This document shows positions 43,498-62,696 of a DNA stretch of 64,000 nucleotides, in pieces. Position numbers and translations under genes: made by a program. The notes beneath the pieces are model-generated. The model was not told where the DNA came from. It searched no databases and was given only the letters and a program-made list of their open reading frames with translations. The stretch comes from Chloroflexota bacterium (GTDB lineage Bacteria > Chloroflexota > Anaerolineae > Aggregatilineales > Phototrophicaceae). The DNA is taken from assembly GCA_011523545.1 (NCBI GenBank), contig WTGN01000032.1, positions 1 through 64,000 on the forward strand, in the 5' to 3' direction. Each line of letters begins with the position of its first letter. Position 1 is the first letter of the stretch.

Positions 43498-44022
43498 TCA
43501 GGCTTCTTTGATTGCGATTGAAATTATCTGATCAGCGCGAATAGACGCATTTGGCCGCTGCGGATCGATTCTTTGCAGTGTGTTGAGCACATCCAAAGCA
43601 GGCGCATCGGCGACCCGCCCGAACACGGCGTGACGGCCGTCAAGGTGCGGCGTCGGCACAAAGGTTATGAAGAATTGGGAGCCGTTTGTGTTCGGTCCCG
43701 CGTTCGCCATGCTCAATGTGCCCGGCGCGTCATGCGCGATTTCAAGCGCGGATGGTTCATCGTCCCAGCGATAGCCAGGTCCGCCGCGGCCGCTGCCGGT
43801 GGGGTCGCCGCCCTGCGCCATAAATCCATCGAGCACGCGATGGAAGATGACGCCATCGTAGAAGCCGTCCCGCGCCAGGAAGACGAAATTGTTCACCGTG
43901 ACCGGCGCGCGGTCGGCGAAGAGGTCGATAGCGATGTCGCCTTTGCTGGTGTTCATGACGGCGCGGTAGGTTTTCTTCGGGTCGATCTGCATGGCGGGCG
44001 GGCTGGCGTATTGCTTGGGCAT
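43498..44022 (-). CDS. Cyclophilin-type peptidyl-prolyl isomerase
   Basis: [47 protein letters not shown]...[35 protein letters not shown]. Confidence 0.96.
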
Positions 44023-44179
44023 TGGGGTCTCCTGTTAGGCTGGGTGGGTGTTGACCTGGGGAGAGTAGCAGACTTGTAGGGAAGGGAATAGGGCGACAGC
44101 GAAACAGGGACAATGTACAGCAATTGGCAATCGGCGTTGGCGATACTATAATTTCGGTCAGAGCGCTAGGCATGCAATT

Positions 44180-45370
44180 ATGGTTGCGGTGAATCCAGAC
44201 ATTCTCATTTGGGCGCGCGAAACTGCTGCTCTTGACTTAGAGGAAGCAGCTCGCAGACTCGGCTTTCGAGATTCCAAACGGCTCACAGCCGCTGAAAAGC
44301 TTGCAAACCTGGAGGGAGGTGTGGAGCATCCCTCTACGTCGCAGCTTGCACGAATGTCGCAAGCTTATTACCAGCCTCCGGTAGTCTTTTACCTGAAGCA
44401 GCCGCCCAAATTGGGAGATAGAGGAGAGGACTTCCGACCTATTCGCCAGCAGGCGGCCAATCGTAAAGGAAACGCGCATCTCAATTTTCTGATGCGCGAC
44501 ACAAAGGTATCTCAGTCGATACTGCGAGACCTTCTTGAAGAAAGCCGAACTGCTCGGCTTGCATTTGTGAATTCTTCAGCCATGTCGATGGGTGTTGAGG
44601 CAGTGGCACTGAACATAATCGAGACTTTGGGCTTCCAAGTAGAAGAATATCGCGCTGCAAGAGACTTTAGAAATGCATTCTCGTATCTCCGCAAACAGAT
44701 TGAACAGGTAGGCATATTCCTGCTGCTACTCAGCGATCTCGGAAGCCATCATACGACGATTCCGGCCGATGTATTCCGAAGTTTCGCTTTTGCCGACGAC
44801 CTTGCGCCTTACATCGTCATCAATCGGCAAGACGCTGTCGCTGGCTGGAGTTTCACTGCCCTGCACGAAGTTGCGCATCTCTGGCTGGGAAAAAGCGGAG
44901 TATCTGGCGAATGGAGCGAAGACGAAACTGAGCGATTTTGCAGTCAAGTCGCAGGCACGATTCTGTTTCGTCCGTTCGATCGCGCAAAGCTTGCTCGTAA
45001 ACTGAACGGTGGAAACCAATGCGTCGTGGATGAGTTCGGAACGGCCGCCCGCGAGACGAATGTAAGTCGCGCCATTCTTGCATATCTCCTTATGCTCGAC
45101 AAGAAAATCAGTCAGGCGTACTGGGAAACCCTTCAAGGACACTTTGAAGAAGACAGCAATCATCGTGCAGATACTAAACGCAAAAGACAGAGACCTGAAT
45201 TCGGAGGGGCAAACTACTATACGATACGGCGCTACCTTCTCGGAGACCGCCTCATAGACTTGACCCGATATTACGTGGACACAGGACAATTATCCGCAAC
45301 AAGAGCCGGCGTCGTTCTGGGCGTGGCGCCTACCAAAGTCCATGCACTGCTGTTTCCTGACCGAATTTGA
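44180..45370 (+). CDS. XRE-type HTH + ImmA/IrrE family metallo-endopeptidase
   Basis: WARETAALDLEEAARRLGF N-terminus; WSFTALHEVAHLWLGKSG (HExxH). Confidence 0.9.
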   Translation: MVAVNPDILIWARETAALDLEEAARRLGFRDSKRLTAAEKLANLEGGVEHPSTSQLARMSQAYYQPPVVFYLKQPPKLGDRGEDFRPIRQQAANRKGNAHLNFLMRDTKVSQSILRDLLEESRTARLAFVNSSAMSMGVEAVALNIIETLGFQVEEYRAARDFRNAFSYLRKQIEQVGIFLLLLSDLGSHHTTIPADVFRSFAFADDLAPYIVINRQDAVAGWSFTALHEVAHLWLGKSGVSGEWSEDETERFCSQVAGTILFRPFDRAKLARKLNGGNQCVVDEFGTAARETNVSRAILAYLLMLDKKISQAYWETLQGHFEEDSNHRADTKRKRQRPEFGGANYYTIRRYLLGDRLIDLTRYYVDTGQLSATRAGVVLGVAPTKVHALLFPDRI

Positions 45371-45942
45371 GGCTCACACCTTTGCTCTATCTTCTGGATA
45401 CCAGCGTTTTGATCGACGCAAAGAACAAATACTATCCTTTAGAACGCATACCACAGTTTTGGAATTGGCTTGTTCATCAATCTCGGGCGGGCAATGTAAA
45501 GTTGCCACCACAAGTGATTGGAGAAATCTTGGGACCCGATAACTCTGACGAAGAGCCTGTAGACGTTTTAGCGGAATGGGTAAAATCCAACCGGACCACA
45601 TTGGAGTGGACTGACGAACTTTCTCTAGAATCACTGACTCGTACGTACAGCCAAGGTTATGAGAGCGTACCCGAAGATCTCACAACTGTGGACCCGCTTT
45701 CTGAACCCGCAGACCCTTTTCTTATCGCTTATGCACTTGAAAGCCCTGAGAACCGTCGAGTCGTAACTATGGAAAATCTACAATCTGTTGGAATGACATT
45801 GCCCAAACCCGCAAACCGTAGAATCCCACTTGTATGCGGTTTACTTGGAGTAGAATGCATCGACACATTCGCGCTTATTCGCCAGCTTGACTTTCGTATC
45901 CCTCTGTCGCCCAATCTTAGTGACACGAGCGCGACGTCTTAA
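45367..45942 (+). CDS. DUF4411 (PIN-like) family protein
   Basis: LLYLLDTSVLIDAKNKYYPLERIPQFWNWL...KLPPQVIGEI; TTG start overlaps the preceding stop (TTGA). Confidence 0.87.
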   Translation: MRLTPLLYLLDTSVLIDAKNKYYPLERIPQFWNWLVHQSRAGNVKLPPQVIGEILGPDNSDEEPVDVLAEWVKSNRTTLEWTDELSLESLTRTYSQGYESVPEDLTTVDPLSEPADPFLIAYALESPENRRVVTMENLQSVGMTLPKPANRRIPLVCGLLGVECIDTFALIRQLDFRIPLSPNLSDTSATS

Positions 45943-45957
45943 GGACACCCAACCTCC

Positions 45958-48393
45958 ATGCCCCAACTTACCGAGCTATTCCAATCTCTCCCCTACGGAC
46001 CCGCGCCTGAAGCCGCAGACGCCGCCGACGCCTGGCTCGATGCGCGCGAGCGCAAGTTCGACCTCTTCATCAACAACGCCTGGACCGCGCCCGCCGCTGG
46101 CAACACCCTCGCCGTCTCCAACCCGGCCCGTGGCCAGCCCCTGGCCCAAGTCGCCGACGCAACCGCCCCCGACATCGACGCCGCGGTGGCCGCCGCGCGG
46201 GCCGCCTATGTATCCTGGACGGCGCTGACGCCGCATCTACGCGCGCGCCACCTTTACGCCATCGCCCGCAATATGCAGAAGCACGCTCGCCTGCTGGCTG
46301 TCGTCGAAAGCCTCGACAACGGCAAGCCGATACGCGAGTCGCGCGATATTGATGTGCCGCTGGCCGCCCGCCACTTCTATTATCACGCCGGCTGGGCGCA
46401 GCTGATGGATAGCGAATTGCGCGATTATCAGTCTCTGGGCGTCGTCGGGCAGGTGATCCCCTGGAATTTCCCGCTCTTGATGCTGGCTTGGAAGATCGCA
46501 CCGGCGCTGGCGACCGGCAATACCGTGGTCATCAAACCGGCGCCCTACACGCCCTTGAGCGCCCTGCTCTTCGCCGAGATCATCGCCGAAGCCGGCATTC
46601 CGCCGGGCGTTGTCAATATTGTGACCGGCGGCGACGAGGCGGGCGCGGCGCTGGTGGCTCATCGCGACCTCGACAAGATCGCCTTCACCGGCTCGACCGC
46701 GGTCGGGCGCGTCATACGGGAAGCGACAGCGGGCACGGGCGTCAAGCTGACGCTGGAACTGGGCGGGAAGTCGCCCTTCGTCGTCTACGATGACGCCGAC
46801 CTCGATGGCGCGATTGAAGGCTTGGTCGACGCCATCTTTTTCAACCAGGGCGAGGTCTGCTGCGCCGGTTCGCGCTTGTTGGTGCAGGAGAATATCGCCG
46901 ATGCCTTCCTGGCCCGCCTCCGGGATCGCATGGCGCGCTTGCGGCTTGGCGACGCGCTGGACAAGTGCATTGATATCGGCTCGGTCATCGACCCCGTCCA
47001 ATACGAAGCGATCGACCGCTGGGTGCAGCGCGGGATCAGCGAAGGCGCGGATGTATACCAGCCCGAGATTGATCTTCCTCCTTTCTTGGATGGCGGCTGC
47101 TTCTATCCGCCGACGCTTTTGAGCAATCTGGAGGCGTCGGCCGCGGTCGCCCAGCAAGAGATATTCGGTCCCGTGCTGGTGGCGATGAGCTTCCGAACGC
47201 CAAGCGAAGCGGTTGAATTGGCGAACAATTCGCGCTACGGCCTGGCGGCTTCCATCTGGAGCGAGAACATCAGCCTTGCGCTGGAGACGGCGCGGCAGAT
47301 CAAGGCGGGCAGCATCTGGATCAACAGCACCAATCTGTTCGATGCCGCGGCCGGCTTCGGCGGTTACCGTGAGAGCGGCTACGGGCGTGAAGGCGGCAAA
47401 GAGGGGCTCTTCGCTTATTTGCGCCCCCGCTGGCATTCCAGAGCGCGGCCCGATTTGGGCGAGCCACGCGCAGATTGGGGCGCGCATACGCCACCAGCTC
47501 CGGCCGCCTTGCCTCTCCCTGATTCGTCGGCGGAACCCAGGGGGGATTCGCTGGACCGCACGGCGAAACTATACATCGGCGGAAAGCAAGCGCGGCCGGA
47601 CGGCAATTACACCCGTCCCGTGCTGTCGCCGGCGGGCCTGATGGTCGGCCAAGTCGGCGATGGCAACCGCAAGGATGTGCGCAATGCGGTGGAGGCGGCG
47701 CGCAAGGCCAAGAACTGGGCTTATTATTCGCCGCACAATCGGGCGCAGATCCTCTTCTACATCGCGGAAAATCTGTCGGCGCGGGCGGAAGAATTCGCCG
47801 GGCGCATCGCCCGCATGAGCGGGGCGCCGCTTGAAGGGGCGCGGGCGGAAGTCGCTGCGTCAATCGAACGGCTCTTTCACTGGGCGGCAATGGCCGACAA
47901 ATCCGGCGGGGTCCTGCAGGAGACGACCCTGCGCGGGCTGGTGGCCGCTGTTCATGAGCCGGTCGGCGTTATCGGCATCGCCTGCCCCGATGAGGCGCCG
48001 CTGCTGGGATTTCTGTCCTTGATCGCGCCAGCCATCTCGCGCGGCAACACCGTCGTCTGCATCCCGTCGCCGCCCTTCCCGCTCAGCGCCACTGATCTGT
48101 ACCAGGTCTTCGATACATCGGACCTGCCGGCGGGCGTCGTAAACATCATCACCGGCGAGCGCGATCATTTGGTGAAGACGATGGTCGAGCATGACGATGT
48201 TGACAGCGTCTGGTATTTCGGTGATGCCGAAGGGAGCCGCCAGGTCGAAGCGCGCTCGATTCACAATCTCAAGCGCACCTGGGTAAATTATGGCATCGCA
48301 CGAGATTGGGGCGATCCCGCGCGGGGCGCCGGCGCCGAGTTCCTCCGTGAGGCGATACAGGTCAAGAATATCTGGACGCCGACGGGCGCTTAA
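45958..48393 (+). CDS. Two-domain aldehyde dehydrogenase, ALDH16-like
   Basis: First domain complete (VIPWNFPLLMLAWKIAPALATGNTVVIKPA, FTGSTAVGRVI, LELGGKSPFVV, FFNQGEVCCAGSRL); second ALDH domain partial without catalytic Cys motif. Confidence 0.88.
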   Translation: MPQLTELFQSLPYGPAPEAADAADAWLDARERKFDLFINNAWTAPAAGNTLAVSNPARGQPLAQVADATAPDIDAAVAAARAAYVSWTALTPHLRARHLYAIARNMQKHARLLAVVESLDNGKPIRESRDIDVPLAARHFYYHAGWAQLMDSELRDYQSLGVVGQVIPWNFPLLMLAWKIAPALATGNTVVIKPAPYTPLSALLFAEIIAEAGIPPGVVNIVTGGDEAGAALVAHRDLDKIAFTGSTAVGRVIREATAGTGVKLTLELGGKSPFVVYDDADLDGAIEGLVDAIFFNQGEVCCAGSRLLVQENIADAFLARLRDRMARLRLGDALDKCIDIGSVIDPVQYEAIDRWVQRGISEGADVYQPEIDLPPFLDGGCFYPPTLLSNLEASAAVAQQEIFGPVLVAMSFRTPSEAVELANNSRYGLAASIWSENISLALETARQIKAGSIWINSTNLFDAAAGFGGYRESGYGREGGKEGLFAYLRPRWHSRARPDLGEPRADWGAHTPPAPAALPLPDSSAEPRGDSLDRTAKLYIGGKQARPDGNYTRPVLSPAGLMVGQVGDGNRKDVRNAVEAARKAKNWAYYSPHNRAQILFYIAENLSARAEEFAGRIARMSGAPLEGARAEVAASIERLFHWAAMADKSGGVLQETTLRGLVAAVHEPVGVIGIACPDEAPLLGFLSLIAPAISRGNTVVCIPSPPFPLSATDLYQVFDTSDLPAGVVNIITGERDHLVKTMVEHDDVDSVWYFGDAEGSRQVEARSIHNLKRTWVNYGIARDWGDPARGAGAEFLREAIQVKNIWTPTGA

Positions 48394-49828: not shown

Positions 49829-49935
49829 GCTGTGATGCAATTGCCCGATGCGCGGCAGGATTGCGCCTTATCGCGCTAAGACCAGCGCGATATAATGACG
49901 GACCGAGAATGTATTCAGACATAGCGGAGTACAGC

Positions 49936-50703
49936 ATGAAACTTTATTCATGGAACGTCAACGGCATCCGCGCCCTGCAGAAAAAGGGCTTCCTCGACTG
50001 GCTCCAGGCCGAGCAGCCGGATATTCTGGCGATTCAAGAAACCAAGGCCCAGCCGCAACAGCTCGACCCCGAATTGAGGCAGCCGGAGGGTTATCATAGC
50101 TGGTGGGTCAGCGCCGAGAAAAAAGGCTACAGCGGCGTCGCCTTGTTCAGCAAAACTGAGCCGAAGGATCTAAAGGACGGGCTGGGCATCAAGAAATTTG
50201 ACAGTGAGGGGCGCACCATCATCGCTGATTTCGGCGATTTTACGCTGATGAGCACCTACCTGCCCAATGGCAAAGCCAGCAAAGAGCGTTTGCGCTACAA
50301 GATGGAATACAAAGAAGCCTTCCTGGATTATGCCAACAGCCTGCGAGCCGCTGGACAGGCGGTGGCGTTCTGCGGCGACATCAACACAGCGCATAACGAA
50401 ATCGACTTGACGCATCCCAAGCCGAACGCCAAGTATTCCGGCTTCCTGCGTGAGGAACGCGACTGGATGGACAAGGTCGTTGAGCAGGGTTACATCGACA
50501 GCTACCGGCATCTGAATCCGGATAAAGAGGGCGCCTATTCCTGGTGGTCAATGCGAAGCGGCGCGCGCGCCAAGAATGTCGGCTGGCGCATCGATTACTT
50601 CTTCATTTCGCCCGACCTGCTGGACAAGATGGCGGCGGCTGAGATTCACGCCGATGTGATGGGTAGCGATCACTGCCCGATCAGCTTGACGCTGGACCTG
50701 TGA
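49936..50703 (+). CDS. xth: Exodeoxyribonuclease III
   Basis: MKLYSWNVNGIRALQKKGFLDWLQAEQPDILAIQETKAQ...CGDINTAHNEIDL...GWRIDYFFISPDLL...GSDHCPISL; internal ATG of the tracked ORF. Confidence 0.95.
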   Translation: MKLYSWNVNGIRALQKKGFLDWLQAEQPDILAIQETKAQPQQLDPELRQPEGYHSWWVSAEKKGYSGVALFSKTEPKDLKDGLGIKKFDSEGRTIIADFGDFTLMSTYLPNGKASKERLRYKMEYKEAFLDYANSLRAAGQAVAFCGDINTAHNEIDLTHPKPNAKYSGFLREERDWMDKVVEQGYIDSYRHLNPDKEGAYSWWSMRSGARAKNVGWRIDYFFISPDLLDKMAAAEIHADVMGSDHCPISLTLDL

Positions 50704-50712
50704 AGCTGAATG

Positions 50713-51432
50713 TCACCAACTCCCTATGGTCCAGCCACCATAACTGTGGACGAGCGCCATGAGCGTCACGAGCGCGCAGGCAACTACAAAAAGCACAAAT
50801 AGCCATAAGAGCATGTAATCAAGAAAGGCCTCTTTCCAGCGATACAGCACTTCATTGAGCGTTTGCAGCCGATCGTTCAGGTATACGAAAAGTGTGTAGG
50901 GATCGTTGACGTCTTCCAGGCGCAAAGGTTGCTGCTGATTGCGCGCGCCATCGTCTCGATAGGCGAGCATCGAGCGCGAACGCCGCGCCCGTCCAGCCGA
51001 AGCGCGCCCATACGAGCCTGGCGATGAATTGTGGCGCCTGGCGGAGCGCGCACCCGCCGCCTTCTCGGGCGTCGTTTGCCTTTGCGGACTTAGATACAGG
51101 CTGCGGTGACTATGGATCGCTAATGCCGAACGCCGCAGTTCCGCCAGTTGATGGGAATCCAGGCTGAGCCATTCATCGCTCAAGCGCGCATGGTGCGCTT
51201 CGAACAGTTGCTCTTCGCTCGCCGCCAGGTCATCCGTTTCCAAAAGGGAAATCAGTTCGAGCCCATAAACTCCTGTGACTTCGGCGCGCAGCGCGTCCAC
51301 GTAGGTGGCAGGGTGATCCGTGCTGTCGATCCGATAAACATCGCGATCGATATCGCGCAGCACGCAGATATAGGCGGCCCGTGCGCCCAGCCTGGGCAGC
51401 GAGCTATATACTTTCGGCGGCAGACTATTCAA
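50713..51432 (-). CDS. Divergent GIY-YIG/T5orf172-like domain protein with C-terminal TM helix (paralog 1)
   Basis: AAYICVLRDIDRDVYRIDSTDHP...LFEAHHARLSDEWLSLDSHQLAEL; C-terminal hydrophobic helix. Confidence 0.65.
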   Translation of the reverse strand: MNSLPPKVYSSLPRLGARAAYICVLRDIDRDVYRIDSTDHPATYVDALRAEVTGVYGLELISLLETDDLAASEEQLFEAHHARLSDEWLSLDSHQLAELRRSALAIHSHRSLYLSPQRQTTPEKAAGARSARRHNSSPGSYGRASAGRARRSRSMLAYRDDGARNQQQPLRLEDVNDPYTLFVYLNDRLQTLNEVLYRWKEAFLDYMLLWLFVLFVVACALVTLMALVHSYGGWTIGSW

Positions 51433-51609
51433 GCTGATTCACCGGCGGATACGCTGGATGCAAGGCAATCTATACGGGCATTATAGCGCGAAACTGTCTC
51501 AGCGCTCAGTGATGAAACTGAGTTGCTGCCTTCAGTTTGAACTGTGAAGCTTAACTGCAGCGGGCGCAGCGAGCGCAGAGGGAAGGTTTGGCCTGGCGTA
51601 TGTATGCAA

Positions 51610-53031
51610 TCACTCCGCCTGTTCGGCTAGCTCGCTGTGGATATAGGCGCTGCCGTCTTCCAAATTAATCTCGTACCAGATATCGATCCCGTAGACCGTT
51701 TCGCCGCTGACCGCGCCCAGCACCTCGAATTCAGTCCCGGGCGCGAATTTCGCCAGGATGTCACAGGTCGTTCGCGGGCAGGCGCGGACATGAGCATTCT
51801 TATTGCCTGCGGTATCGACGACATAGCGGGGCGCGGCGCTGTCCGTGGCGGTCGGCGGCGGATCGGTCGCGGTGGCAGTCGGCGGGATCGAAGTCGCCGT
51901 TGGCGGCGCTTCGGTGGCGGTTGGCGGGATCGAAGTCGCCGTTGGCGGCGCGTCGGTGGCGGTCGGCGGAATCGAAGTCGCTGTTGGCGCGGGCAAGGTC
52001 TGGTCGGAGACCTGCGCAATTCGAGAATAGACGCCATCCCGCTGGGCGCGCAGGCGGAATATCACGCGGTCGCCCGGCGACAAGCCGGCCAACTTGGCTG
52101 AGAATCTATCGACGGTCTGCCAGGCCGAAAAGCCGCTGTCGTTGACGCTGAAGCGGTATTGGTAGCTTTCGGCCTGCGGCATTTTGTACCAGTTGAAGCG
52201 AAGCGATGTCTCGGTTCTCTCGGCCAGGAAGATCTCCGGCTGCGCCAGCCTTATCCGCATCGCTGGCGTCGCCGACGGAAGCGCATTGCTCACTGGTTTT
52301 GTCGTCGGCTGGGCAACGGCGCGCGAAGACGCTCCCGGCGTCGATGGCGTCAGAATGGCGTTTATGGCGCTTTGAATATCAATGGAACGCTCGCCAGCAA
52401 CGGCCGCTGCAAGGACAACCAGCGCCAGCAATGCCACCCAGCGCATGACAGGCGGCCGCCGACGCCCGGCTGGCCGGCGCACACTTGGCGCGGCTGCTTG
52501 CGGCTCGGCGCCGACCAGCTGCATGTCCTCCAAAAGGGAGTCGGCCTCTTTTTCGTTCCGCGCCAGGTCGCGCAGGGAAACCGAGTCGCCCTGCCCCGCC
52601 CGTTGTGCTTGTTCCGGGGGAAATTGCCGCAGATCAAACCATTCGCCAATTGGCAGGCCGGGCGCGAGTTCATCGTGCAAATCCCGCTCGGCGGCGGCGG
52701 CGTTTTCGGCTTGCCAGATTCGTATGACGCGGGTTTCGAAGGGGAAATCGGCGCCGCGCCGAATCATACGCCGGCCCAGTTCTTGATGCCGGGCGATGGT
52801 GTAGCGGTTGCCATAGGCGACATCCTGAACGAGGATGACGTAACCGGCGGGCGGCGCAAGCCATGGCAAGCGCGAGACGCGGTTCACCGCAATCTGCTGT
52901 ACACCGGGCCTTTTCCGCAAGCGCTCCTCCCCCGCTGTCCATAGTCGCGCGGTTGGATTGTAACACGGTGGCCCGCGCGCTGGCTTATGATTGGCCTGCG
53001 CTCGCGGCCCCGCCACGATGCCGGCAGCCAA
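51610..53031 (-). CDS. GIY-YIG/T5orf172-like domain + TM + PPTAT linker + SH3-like domain protein (paralog 2)
   Basis: GYVILVQDVAYGNRYTIARHQELGRRM...ERDLHDELAPGLPIGEWFDLRQFPPEQ; TM VMRWVALLALVVLAAAVA; C-terminal VRACPRTTCDILAKFAPGTEFEVLG...WYEI. True start is probably downstream of the tracked one. Confidence 0.65.
   Translation of the reverse strand: MAAGIVAGPRAQANHKPARGPPCYNPTARLWTAGEERLRKRPGVQQIAVNRVSRLPWLAPPAGYVILVQDVAYGNRYTIARHQELGRRMIRRGADFPFETRVIRIWQAENAAAAERDLHDELAPGLPIGEWFDLRQFPPEQAQRAGQGDSVSLRDLARNEKEADSLLEDMQLVGAEPQAAAPSVRRPAGRRRPPVMRWVALLALVVLAAAVAGERSIDIQSAINAILTPSTPGASSRAVAQPTTKPVSNALPSATPAMRIRLAQPEIFLAERTETSLRFNWYKMPQAESYQYRFSVNDSGFSAWQTVDRFSAKLAGLSPGDRVIFRLRAQRDGVYSRIAQVSDQTLPAPTATSIPPTATDAPPTATSIPPTATEAPPTATSIPPTATATDPPPTATDSAAPRYVVDTAGNKNAHVRACPRTTCDILAKFAPGTEFEVLGAVSGETVYGIDIWYEINLEDGSAYIHSELAEQAE
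51855..51990 (-). repeat. 42-bp in-frame tandem repeats encoding PPTATSIPPTAT[ED]A
   Basis: ggcgggatcgaagtcgccgttggcggcgcttcggtggcggtt repeated with few changes. Confidence 0.8.
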
Positions 53032-53067
53032 GCCAGGTCAACCGCGTGAAAGATTGGCTCGTTAGGC

Positions 53068-53754
53068 CTAGGCCCTAAAGCCGGAGACAATGAGCACGAG
53101 CAGACCAAGCGCGACGAGCCCGATCCAAATCAGCAGGAGACAGCCGGGGTCATTCCAGATGAGATTTTCGATACGCTTCGCTATCCACGCTCCCACTGTA
53201 GTTGGCGATCCCCGCATCGCGCTGGCCTCCATGCCTGCGGGCGGGCTTTGCCGCGACAGCTGAATATCGCGCCATTGCGTTCTCGCGCGCGCGGCCTCAT
53301 TCGATGTCATCCACCTGCCGTAGCGCGTCTCCGCCAGGGGAAAATTGACCGTCGGCAATTGTGCTCGCTGGGGCACAATGTATTGGCTGCTGTGCGCGTC
53401 GATTTTCAGGATGGAGCGGCGCAATTCTTCATGCTGAACCGCATCCAACTCAAGCCATTGTTCGCTCAAGCGCGCATGGTGCCGCTCATAAAGCGCGGTC
53501 TCGCTCTTCTGCAGGTCGGCTGTTGCGAGAATCGAGATCAACTCAAGGCCAAAGGCGCGCGGCGCTTCGGCGAGAATGGCAGCGACAAATGGCCCGGGAT
53601 GGTCGGTGGCGTCGATGCGATATCGGTCGCTGTCGATGTCTCGTATCACGCAGACATACGTCGCCGGCGCTTCCAGCTTGGGCAGCGTCTTGTAGCTTTT
53701 GGGCGACAGACTGCGCAGTTCGCCGGATGATGTCATGCCCTGTCTCGCTTCCAC
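53068..53754 (-). CDS. Divergent GIY-YIG/T5orf172-like domain protein with C-terminal TM helix (paralog 3)
   Basis: ATYVCVIRDIDSDRYRIDATDHP...LYERHHARLSEQWLELDAVQHEEL; C-terminal CLLLIWIGLVALGLLVLIV. Confidence 0.65.
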   Translation of the reverse strand: MEARQGMTSSGELRSLSPKSYKTLPKLEAPATYVCVIRDIDSDRYRIDATDHPGPFVAAILAEAPRAFGLELISILATADLQKSETALYERHHARLSEQWLELDAVQHEELRRSILKIDAHSSQYIVPQRAQLPTVNFPLAETRYGRWMTSNEAARARTQWRDIQLSRQSPPAGMEASAMRGSPTTVGAWIAKRIENLIWNDPGCLLLIWIGLVALGLLVLIVSGFRA

Positions 53755-53907
53755 CGGAAATCGACGCCTCTAGTCTAGCAGACCGGCGAGACGCGCGGGC
53801 GCCGAGTATGGATTCTGACGCCAGTCCGGCGAAGACAGCGAAACCGGCGGCGTCAGCGATTGCGCGTCCCGCGACTGCTCGACTAACTGCTTCACAAAAC
53901 CTGAGGT

Positions 53908-54597
53908 CTAGCAGCCATAGCGAGGGCTGCTAGACCAATTAAAAGTCACCAGAATGAACCACACAAGCAACGCGAGAGCGAACAAACATTTCCCTGGATG
54001 TTTGTGCCAAAGATCGGTCAGCGCGTAATCGATGGTCTCGCGCAAGCCTGTGCGCCGCTGCCCGGCCGGGCTCGTGTTATCGCCTCGGCCGCGCTTGAGC
54101 GCATTGGCGCCATAGCGATGCCAACTCAGCGACGGTTGGGCTGGCGATAGTGGCGGCGCGTTTCGCTGACCGACGCGCGAAATTGGGGCCCCGTCCAGCG
54201 CCGGCCGAGATGGAGCGCTCGCCGGGGTCTCCATCCGCCGCGGCTGCCCGGGGCTGATGTAAAGGCTGCGATGAGCGTAAACTTGCAACTCGGATTTCTG
54301 CAGCTCGCGCAGTTGGAAGTTGTCAAGCGCCAGCCATTGCTCGCTCAGCGTTGCGTGATGACGGGCGAAGAGGCGCGCCTCGCTGGCGGCGATATCGGCC
54401 GTCTCCAGAATGGACAGCAGCTCGATGCCGAATTGGCGCTCGCCTTCAGCAACCAGCGCCTCGATGAATGAATAGGGGTGCTGTGTTGCCTCAATCCGGT
54501 AGCGGTCGCTGTCGACATCGCGGATGACACAGATATAGGCGGACGGCCGCTCAAGCGTCGGCAGCGCCGCATAATCGGCGGGCGCTAAACTTCTCAT
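53908..54597 (-). CDS. Divergent GIY-YIG/T5orf172-like domain protein with C-terminal TM helix (paralog 4)
   Basis: SAYICVIRDVDSDRYRIEATQHP...LFARHHATLSEQWLALDNFQLREL; C-terminal CLFALALLVWFILVTF. Confidence 0.65.
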   Translation of the reverse strand: MRSLAPADYAALPTLERPSAYICVIRDVDSDRYRIEATQHPYSFIEALVAEGERQFGIELLSILETADIAASEARLFARHHATLSEQWLALDNFQLRELQKSELQVYAHRSLYISPGQPRRMETPASAPSRPALDGAPISRVGQRNAPPLSPAQPSLSWHRYGANALKRGRGDNTSPAGQRRTGLRETIDYALTDLWHKHPGKCLFALALLVWFILVTFNWSSSPRYGC

Positions 54598-54731
54598 GAT
54601 ACTAGAGCCTCACAACGGTTTTGACGGCGAAACAGGCTCTCCTACAGTGTATCATCTGTGCGCCTTCCGCTCTATCGTCTGTGAGGCATGCCTTTCGCCC
54701 GTCCTTATGCACAATTGCACGTGATTAGAAA

Positions 54732-54761
54732 TGTAGGGGCGAGCCGCCGGCTCGCCCGTAC
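54732..54761. repeat. GGGGCGAG-type palindromic repeat
   Basis: tgtaggggcgagccgccggctcgcccgtac. Confidence 0.85.
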
Positions 54762-54880
54762 ACACAACGGATATGCAGTATCATTCGGCGATCTATCGTG
54801 AACAACTACGTGGAGCGATTGCCCCGTCTTCGAACGTTGAACCAGGGACCTTGTCGGATCCGCGATAGTATAATGAAGCT

Positions 54881-55453
54881 ATGAATGTCGCCGGTCTGAT
54901 TGACGCCAGTTTTAACGAGGCGATGAAAGCCCTGGTCATGGGCACTTCCGAGGCGGCTTTGGCGCGCGCTCGTGAACGCGCCTTTGTCAAGACGCTGATT
55001 GCGCGTTTGCAAAGCGCGGTCGAGGGCGAGGATCTTCGTGTTTTCGCATCGTCACAGCGCGGAAACATAGCCGCTTTCGGGACGAATCAACTGCTGCATG
55101 ACATTGTGCTATGCCGCATCGGCCAGGGCAAGACAGCGGCGCGGGTGGCGGAAGATTTTTTCTTTGTCGCCGAGGCGCTCTGGCAAATCGAAGTCGACTT
55201 CTCGCGCGAATGGCGGCCCGCTCTCTATGCGCTCAACCGCCTCAACTGCGGCGCGGCAGCGCAGAAACTGCTCATCGCTTGCCCGCATGAGCGGAACCGA
55301 GAGCGTTTCATGAAAGGCTTGCAGGCGCCAGCAGCGGCAGGCGGCGGCAATCTCTATTTGGCGCTCATCCCGCACCCCGCGGACTGGGATGACCTGGCCA
55401 GCCAGCCTCAAGTCTGGCAGCTGGAGGACGACGGCTGGGCCGCGCTGACATGA
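54881..55453 (+). CDS. Hypothetical protein
   Basis: 190-aa ORF with typical coding composition; no recognised motif. Confidence 0.55.
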   Translation: MNVAGLIDASFNEAMKALVMGTSEAALARARERAFVKTLIARLQSAVEGEDLRVFASSQRGNIAAFGTNQLLHDIVLCRIGQGKTAARVAEDFFFVAEALWQIEVDFSREWRPALYALNRLNCGAAAQKLLIACPHERNRERFMKGLQAPAAAGGGNLYLALIPHPADWDDLASQPQVWQLEDDGWAALT

Positions 55454-61371: not shown

Positions 61372-61839
61372 CTAGACATTGCCTTGGTTGACCCATTTCT
61401 GGAATTCAGTCATATTGAATACGTGTAACAGATTGTCCTTTTGCATGGCGCGCACCCATTTTTCGGCGCCCGGGCGGTAGCCGCCACCATCAAGCACGAA
61501 GACGGTCTCGTATTCCGATGACCAAATGTTGAGGACAAAATAGGGATATTTCTCGTCAACCGTACCACCGACCTGTTGCCATTTTGCCTCAATGACTAAA
61601 CCGTCGGGCCATTTCTGCGGGTGATAGAGCAGAAAATCACAGATTAGATCCGTGCCGTAAATCGTTTGCCCTATATTGACTTGAGAGGCGAAACTGGGCT
61701 TATTGAAGTTGTGCATGGCGTTTGCCAAAGTTTTCTTGTCCATTATTTTGGCAAAGCCACATTCAATCAAGTTTTGCTCGATAAACTTTTCCAAGCGATT
61801 GCCGGTCAAATTAGCTTTCGCGCCTTGAGACTTCGCCAT
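61372..61839 (-). CDS. PD-(D/E)XK nuclease-like protein, candidate restriction endonuclease
   Basis: CDFLLYHPQKWPDGLVIEAKWQ (D...ExK core); 8 nt downstream of a D12 methyltransferase gene. Confidence 0.75.
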   Translation of the reverse strand: MAKSQGAKANLTGNRLEKFIEQNLIECGFAKIMDKKTLANAMHNFNKPSFASQVNIGQTIYGTDLICDFLLYHPQKWPDGLVIEAKWQQVGGTVDEKYPYFVLNIWSSEYETVFVLDGGGYRPGAEKWVRAMQKDNLLHVFNMTEFQKWVNQGNV

Positions 61840-61847
61840 GCCGCCTC

Positions 61848-62696
61848 CTAGTAATTCGTGATGAGCAATTCGTCGACCGCGCCGCGCGCGTCCGCATTCG
61901 AGTTGACAAATCGCGGCGCTTTGACCATCTCGACATTGAAGACGGGATTCCTGTAGAGCGCCGACGACGTATCGCTGTTGGACAGCATGAACTTCGCCCC
62001 GCGGTCATGCAGCGCGAGGCAAAGGTCGCGCAGCGCAGTTTGCTCGGTCGCGCCGAAGTCGTCTTTGGCGTAGCGCGTGAACGAGGTTTTGTCGAGCGGT
62101 TGATAAGGCGGGTCGAAGTAAAGGAAATCGCCCTTGCCCGCCGCAAGTTTACGGAAGTCTCGCGTCCGAATGTCCACGCCTTGCAAGGCGGCTTGACAAG
62201 CGAGCAGCAGCGCTTCCTGACAAATGGCTGGTTTCTTGTAGCTCCCAAGCGGCACGTTAAACTCGCCCTTGGAATTCACGCGCCATAGGCCGTTGTAGCA
62301 GGTCTTGTTGAGGTAGATGAAACGCGCCGCTATTTCAACGCGGTCGTCGAGTTGATGCTGACTGCGAATCTTGTAGTAGTAGGCTTTCGAGTGTTTCGCC
62401 GCGTGCTGGCGCAGCTTATGGATGAGTGGTTCGGGATCGCGCTGGATGACCTGGTAGGTGTTGATGAGATCGAAGTTGATATCACTTAAGAATGCCTGCC
62501 CCCCCCCCGCAAAATCAATTCTTCCCTCATTTTTCAGGGCGAAGAAGAGCGCGCCGCCGCCGACAAAGGGTTCGTAATAATTGTTGAATTCGGCGGGCAC
62601 GCGAGAGATCAATTCGGGCAGGAGGCTGCGCTTGCCGCCCACCCACTTGACAAAGGGCTTCGCGCTGTGAACATTTGGCAGAGGCGCTTGTGGCAT
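61848..62696 (-). CDS. D12-class DNA adenine methyltransferase (Dam family)
   Basis: FVKWVGGKRSLLPELISRVPAEFNNYYEPFVGGGALFFAL...LSDINFDLINTYQVI...FLYFDPPYQPLDKTSFTRYAKDDF. Confidence 0.93.
   Translation of the reverse strand: MPQAPLPNVHSAKPFVKWVGGKRSLLPELISRVPAEFNNYYEPFVGGGALFFALKNEGRIDFAGGGQAFLSDINFDLINTYQVIQRDPEPLIHKLRQHAAKHSKAYYYKIRSQHQLDDRVEIAARFIYLNKTCYNGLWRVNSKGEFNVPLGSYKKPAICQEALLLACQAALQGVDIRTRDFRKLAAGKGDFLYFDPPYQPLDKTSFTRYAKDDFGATEQTALRDLCLALHDRGAKFMLSNSDTSSALYRNPVFNVEMVKAPRFVNSNADARGAVDELLITNY

Follow-up and report, generated by a model that had tools for sequence, protein, structure and literature searches.

Four consecutive genes of a Chloroflexota bacterium (order Aggregatilineales, family Phototrophicaceae), p1 to p4, encode what appears to be a family of pseudonucleases that are tethered to the membrane, specific to this lineage and reused to bind proteins, a reading that we favor with moderate confidence and whose topology, loss of catalysis and protein binding we infer. 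The genes lie in a stretch of 64,000 nucleotides (contig WTGN01000032.1, assembly GCA_011523545.1; hereafter the window), all on the minus strand, between an exonuclease III gene and an orphan gene, c2. The N-terminal domains of all four are well supported, in fold and homology, as divergent members of the GIY-YIG superfamily, T5orf172/MUG113 branch. p1, p3 and p4 form one "short" class, with an acidic domain and a tail anchor; p2 belongs to a "long" class, in which the domain is followed by a transmembrane (TM) helix, a fibronectin type III (FN3) domain and a bacterial SH3 (SH3b) domain.

Between p1, p3 and p4, the N-terminal domains share 44-59% identity (E 1e-42 to 1e-47, well past chance). 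No Pfam GIY-YIG model matched these three proteins, no relevant name was found for them in Pfam, NCBIfam or PADLOC, and no member of the short class reaches T5orf172 or MUG113 even at E≤1. p2 stays below the Pfam gathering cut-offs for both MUG113 (20.8 bits, cut-off 22.3) and T5orf172 (15.7 bits, cut-off 20), and direct BLASTP gave no link between p2 and the other three. Profile-profile comparison does join the long and short domains (99.3%), so that the related N-terminal domain claimed for all four minus-strand open reading frames (ORFs) in the original prediction, which was made from the sequence alone, is present. Domain alignments were built for the short (A1, 36 rows), long (A2, 15 rows) and intact T5orf172 (A3, 8 rows) proteins; the A1 and A3 profiles match at 99.2% (E 7e-20), and A2 and A3 at 99.5%. 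With p4 as a single query, an intact T5orf172 protein encoded at the same locus of a sister genome (G001:C103; L084) was recovered at 6.8e-10 and 43% identity. The AlphaFold model of p4 has a pLDDT mostly >90 over residues 1-110, with the order strand-strand-helix-strand-helix-strand-helix, and nearly all its Foldseek matches among viral models are T5orf172, MUG113, GIY-YIG or Bro proteins (probability ~1.00, best E 1e-3). A sequence search of solved structures with the intact and short profiles matched nothing. The predicted GIY-YIG/T5orf172 fold and ancestry are thus borne out by model, search and profiles.

The signature residues separate the classes. Intact domains have the GIY Tyr and the YIG Gly in 10/10, the helix Arg in 9/9, and Glu and His in 9/10 each, the exception being a frameshifted copy. 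A frameshifted intact copy that our script had counted as short (L031 15957-16520) was set aside, leaving 41 short domains. Among these, the GIY Tyr is never present, Cys or Leu taking its place; the YIG Gly is likewise absent (0/41), with Asp, Glu, Gln or Asn wherever the position exists; and the helix Arg is found in 0/41, its substitute being nearly always hydrophobic or aromatic (Tyr, Phe or Leu). The His is mostly replaced together with these three. The loss of Gly and Arg described originally for p1, p3 and p4 thus holds throughout the short class. The YIG Tyr is kept as Tyr or Phe in about 38/41, and A1 has 12 invariant columns, including R27, W89, D93 and Q96. From these replacements, the short class is probably catalytically inactive.

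In the long class, the GIY Tyr is retained in 0/20 domains (Val, Ile or Cys instead), the Gly in 2/20, the Arg in 4/20 and the Glu in 12/20; the 20 rows include L033 7579, a short protein misplaced by the script and returned to the short class in the tree run. p2 has an Arg at or beside the helix position despite its Ala for the YIG Gly and Ile for the GIY Tyr, and the putative metal-binding Glu is present in all of p1-p4. The original prediction had placed p2 nearer to canonical T5orf172/MUG113 proteins and had paired it, as the active partner, with the dead paralogs. p2 falls just short of the Pfam cut-offs, and its GIY Tyr and YIG Gly are also gone. Given that p2 itself lacks both residues, it is unlikely, on sequence grounds, to be the catalytic partner of the short paralogs.

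The domains also differ in charge. The short domain has a median net charge of -7 and a pI of 4.7, with 0/40 above pI 8, whereas the intact domain is basic (median +4, pI 9.2) and the long class intermediate (median -2.5). Contributing to the shift are Asp or Glu at the active-site Gly and the missing helix Arg. For orthologous pairs of short proteins, dN/dS is 0.09-0.31 in the domain versus 0.30-0.75 in the remaining protein; hence, the domain is maintained by purifying selection. Linkers of the short class are mostly basic, and the net charge of most lies in the range of about 0 to +12. Of these linkers, 20/42 carry an RYG(A)xxLRR-like motif (shuffled mean 2.4, although common ancestry inflates the count), which is absent from long and intact proteins.

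Membrane anchoring, as originally predicted, is upheld by hydropathy. Exactly one hydrophobic helix occurs in each of p1-p4 (Kyte-Doolittle (KD) mean 2.1-3.1), mid-protein in p2 and at the extreme C-terminus in p1, p3 and p4, where it follows an N-terminal domain of ~115 residues and a linker of ~80-100 residues. Almost every family protein encoded at the locus has a single TM helix following the domain, the exceptions being L033 9745-12504 and L085, for which no helix was detected. In 39/41 short proteins (one of the 41 being the frameshifted intact copy) at most 16 residues follow the helix, which constitutes a tail anchor. Lys and Arg are more numerous before the helix than after it in 17/19 long proteins; for short proteins the count is higher before in 21, equal in 18 and lower in 2. 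By this bias, the domain would be cytoplasmic and FN3/SH3b external, and a single N-in span is the predicted topology. The extracytoplasmic SH3 domain attributed to p2 originally is accordingly recovered by Pfam (SH3_3, 1e-7), AlphaFold and the charge-based prediction; the FN3 domain between the TM helix and SH3 had been missed.

The family is confined to one genus and, within it, largely to one address. By sequence searches of genomes, on which all genome-wide counts are based, relatives occur in 31/34 genomes of the genus and in 0/27 other genomes sampled from the order; the short profile has no match among about 294 genomes from other genera of the class. One to four family genes directly adjoin c2 in 28 of the 32 genomes in which the locus is readable, so that the clustering is indeed conserved; L089, L090, L092 and L093 have no family gene there. 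Short and long genes occur together in 15 of the 28, short only in 8, long only in 4 (L085-L088) and intact only in 1 (L084), and four family genes are found in six genomes, the present one included. An obligate short-long pairing was rejected on these counts, which also speak against the proposed dead-plus-active pair. A mobile or defence island was rejected as well, on account of the fixed address across the genus.

The orphan c2 is present in 33/34 genomes of the genus and 0/64 other genomes of the family, and no Pfam or PDB relative of it was found. A related genus (G306, G363) has the xthA-M20 pair but neither c2 nor the cluster. Both thus seem to have arisen within the genus studied here, and proximity to xthA is no indicator of shared function. 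In the nearest relative (G011, L030), p3 is reduced to a remnant and a long gene is broken, reflecting either continuing gene birth and death or assembly errors. The genus is probably sponge-dwelling, given relatives (Chloroflexi/Anaerolineae metagenome-assembled genomes) whose names fit coral-reef sponge metagenomes such as those of PMC8163846.

Intact relatives at the same locus point to the origin of the family. T5orf172-TM-SH3b proteins with all GIY-YIG signature residues and scores above the Pfam cut-offs are encoded inside the cluster or at its address in L045 (6521-7483), L041 (7517-8644) and L084 (6127-7251); L047 has an intact T5orf172-TM protein without an SH3 match. The former three share with p2 its architecture, its locus and a homologous domain, and differ by their intact signature residues; the intact T5orf172-TM-SH3b protein is therefore likely the ancestral form. 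Outside the genus, none of the T5orf172 proteins of the class for which our script located an ORF had a TM helix. In a domain tree of 113 columns, midpoint-rooted and with many open forks, the short clade (100/100), the long clade (96/79) and the two combined (97/77) stand apart from the intact domains. The strong acidity, the restriction to one genus at a fixed address and the intact T5orf172-TM(-SH3b) proteins in the same locus of four relatives go beyond the original prediction.

We propose that an intact T5orf172-TM-SH3b ancestor, with a cytoplasmic nuclease domain and an extracytoplasmic SH3b, settled between xthA and c2 in the ancestor of the genus, and that the gene duplicated and its copies lost the nuclease chemistry. 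The long descendants (p2) would have retained the single span and the envelope-facing FN3/SH3b, and could thus couple the cell outside to the cytoplasmic face. The short descendants (p1, p3, p4) would have dropped the ectodomain and become C-tail-anchored, their former catalytic pocket being filled by conserved non-catalytic residues (Cys at the GIY Tyr, Asp or Glu at the YIG Gly, Tyr, Phe or Leu at the Arg). At the inner face of the membrane, they would display an acidic domain through a linker that is flexible and mostly basic. Given the acidity and the lost phosphate-binding residues, protein binding or nucleic acid mimicry is expected rather than DNA binding; the domains would not process DNA and may instead present a protein-binding, possibly DNA-mimicking, surface that scaffolds or restrains partners. 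c2 is a candidate partner, since it is equally genus-restricted and adjoins the cluster.

Several observations weigh against the pseudonuclease reading. The putative metal-binding Glu is retained in 35/41 short domains, and one Arg, R27 of A1, is new and invariant in the class. T5orf172 activity has been shown to depend on a Glu (PMC10448857), and GIY-YIG enzymes can work with atypical active sites, among them one with a relocated Arg, as with R.Hpy188I (PMC2630997); with these precedents, activity has probably, but not certainly, been lost. Furthermore, the Foldseek search of p4 against PDB is not significant (top match a UPF0213 GIY-YIG protein, E 0.8), and the topology draws on hydropathy and the positive-inside rule only. 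The neighbouring genes have a background of -2 over equal length and 17% are at or below -7, so that net acidity alone is weak and the difference from the intact relatives carries more weight. The retained Glu and YIG Tyr/Phe, R27 and the relocated-Arg precedent would also suit short and long proteins that are still nucleases, with a rearranged active site working on membrane DNA in repair, uptake or turnover, possibly alongside xthA. We nevertheless hold this to be improbable: the GIY Tyr, YIG Gly, helix Arg and mostly the His are replaced jointly, the domain is acidic, and the xthA-M20 linkage exists in the related genus without the cluster.

An anti-phage device is unlikely too, if a little less so. 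Here, tethered T5orf172 proteins would sense the envelope via SH3b/FN3 and cut or trap incoming DNA, with the short paralogs as regulatory or decoy subunits. Copy number is variable, with gene birth and death; sponge symbionts are reportedly enriched in defence genes (PMC8163846); and intact members have weak profile similarity to the candidate defence families PDC-S57 and PD-Lambda-1. However, the PDC-S57 similarity is limited to the generic T5orf172 domain, PADLOC has no match for p1-p4, c2 or c1, the core address is fixed almost throughout the genus, unlike the patchy spread usual for defence islands, and a strongly acidic domain makes a poor DNA trap. The acidity of the short domain also tells against a membrane-nucleoid tether, in which the domains would bind DNA without cutting it and hold chromosome regions at the membrane; although the ancestral fold acts on DNA, the cytoplasmic linkers are basic and each protein has a single TM anchor, we consider this idea quite improbable. 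Finally, the genes might be decaying remnants of homing-type selfish nuclease genes, functionless today. T5orf172 genes are often phage homing endonucleases (PMC10448857), and remnants and frameshifts are observed (L030 8484-8774; L031 15957-16939), but most copies have open frames, the domain is under purifying selection, the replacement residues are near-invariant and a single address is fixed in 28 genomes. This last explanation is already disfavored and, in our judgment, very improbable.

The pseudonuclease family can be set against known systems. The T5orf172 (PF10544)/MUG113 (PF13455) nucleases of phages, giant viruses and bacteria resemble it in fold, strand-helix order, N-terminal hydrophobic strands, helix Glu and EWF-like C-terminal strand. 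Unlike them, short and long proteins lack the GIY Tyr and YIG Gly, the helix Arg is missing always in the short and mostly in the long class, the short class is acidic and goes undetected by Pfam, and the family is nearly all membrane-anchored. T5orf172 has likewise been recruited to a new modular role in the Odn/homing-type nucleases of phage ICP1 (PMC8263062, PMC10448857), but those are phage-borne and active, while the cluster proteins are chromosomal, membrane-anchored and probably inactive. R.Hpy188I also combines the fold with replaced signature residues; it is, however, a restriction enzyme with one Tyr replaced, the Arg being relocated in some relatives (PMC2630997), whereas in the cluster four positions change together and the domain is acidic. 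The eukaryotic LEM-3/ANKLE1 (COG3680) combines GIY-YIG, within one multidomain protein, with a domain also known in proteins associated with the nuclear membrane (PMC1564403). It resembles the cluster in this multidomain setting and belongs to a different GIY-YIG subfamily. LEM-3/ANKLE1 is an active nuclease, and we know of no TM-SH3b architecture in it.

Features at the cluster (window 49909-55453)
Feature	Position	Strand	Evidence
p1, short paralog, 239 aa, TTG start	50713..51432	-	ORF
p1 pseudo-GIY-YIG domain (putative)	51082..51432	-	alignment A1
p1 C-terminal TM helix (predicted)	50749..50805	-	KD 2.8
p2 ORF, full extent	51610..53031	-	
p2, long paralog, 436 aa from TTG 52920: degenerate T5orf172, TM, FN3, Pro/Thr linker, SH3b	51610..52920	-	
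p2 degenerate T5orf172 domain; Ile at GIY Tyr, Ala at YIG Gly	52558..52905	-	
p2 TM helix, model aa 158-190, N-terminal side Arg-rich	52351..52449	-	
p2 fibronectin type III domain	52000..52233	-	AlphaFold; Foldseek PDB E 5e-6, TM-score 0.79 to FN3
p2 bacterial SH3 domain	51619..51828	-	Pfam SH3_3 1e-7; AlphaFold
p3 ORF, full extent	53068..53754	-	
p3, short paralog, 222 aa, ATG 53736	53068..53736	-	
p3 pseudo-GIY-YIG domain (putative)	53368..53721	-	alignment A1; 57% identity with p4
p3 C-terminal TM helix (predicted)	53086..53142	-	KD 3.1
p4, short paralog, 229 aa, ATG: GIY-YIG-like domain, disordered linker, C-terminal tail anchor	53908..54597	-	
p4 acidic pseudo-GIY-YIG domain (putative), aa 1-118	54244..54597	-	AlphaFold; Foldseek viral matches
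p4 TM helix (predicted), aa 201-222	53932..53997	-	hydropathy; AlphaFold
c2, 190-aa orphan, divergently transcribed, adjoins cluster	54881..55453	+	
xthA-like exonuclease III, other fixed flank, outside family	49909..50703	+	Pfam Exo_endo_phos; synteny

The likely start of p2 is TTG 52920, which is preceded by GGAGGAG and agrees with the start in relatives; that of p3 is ATG 53736. A scan of the cluster for operon signals gave no excess of promoters or terminators and no Rfam element. In c2, MGTS and RARER stretches are invariant and are accompanied by a WQIExDFSREW-like stretch; by eye, c2 resembles a PD-(D/E)XK nuclease core, for which it is a candidate.

Further T5orf172 proteins are scattered through the genus. 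The only ones found in the present genome above the Pfam cut-offs are a pair 14-20 kb from the cluster, with hydrophobic segments N-terminal to the domain (C37:68382-69308 and 70185-70739; L010 8382-9308 and 10185-10739). The second of these, C37:70185-70739, is a multi-TM fusion of the domain, as is one in L138. Double T5orf172 proteins with a C-terminal TM helix, domain one degenerate and domain two intact, are encoded between aldehyde dehydrogenase and cyclophilin genes in L030 (16538-17521), L038 (13702-14673) and L086 (4134-5174). No such gene lies in that gap of the present genome, and tblastn found no remnant; the GC content between the cyclophilin and aldehyde dehydrogenase genes dips to 0.51 versus about 0.60 (window 44001-46000). 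An 811-aa ORF (window 45958-48393) appears by eye to consist of two tandem aldehyde dehydrogenase halves and is a neighbour conserved through most of the genus. Three tandem T5orf172-like domains occur in proteins of 434-515 aa at other addresses (L133, L134, L135, L136, L140), and L141 1997-2608 encodes 204 aa in which the T5orf172 motif is intact and a TM helix lies at the C-terminus, i.e. the short architecture with catalytic residues. Long paralogs of 920-1061 aa carry many SH3-like repeats after the TM region (L036 8037-11219, L043 7701-10574, L033 9745-12504), the repeat number varying among close relatives. Elsewhere in the window (61372-62696), a PDDEXK_11 nuclease gene adjoins a D12-class adenine methyltransferase gene, possibly a restriction-modification pair; homologs lie near the locus in several relatives.

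Taken together, the fold is one already known, and the architecture, the short acidic class and the genus-wide expansion at a fixed address appear to be new. The open-licence papers searched contained no membrane-anchored T5orf172 architecture, tail-anchored acidic pseudonuclease class or fixed-address expansion, an absence that is weak evidence. More tentatively, the short proteins might constitute a new functional class, in which tail-anchored acidic pseudo-GIY-YIG domains, derived from an active membrane-tethered nuclease, serve as membrane protein-docking or DNA-mimic regulators amid a genus-wide T5orf172 radiation (single, double and triple domains; TM-FN3-SH3b; many-SH3-repeat proteins). 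Pseudoenzymes among nucleases are seldom caught alongside a surviving intact ancestor. Given that intact, half-degenerate and fully replaced versions share one address in sister genomes, the steps from enzyme to binding module are readable in this family.

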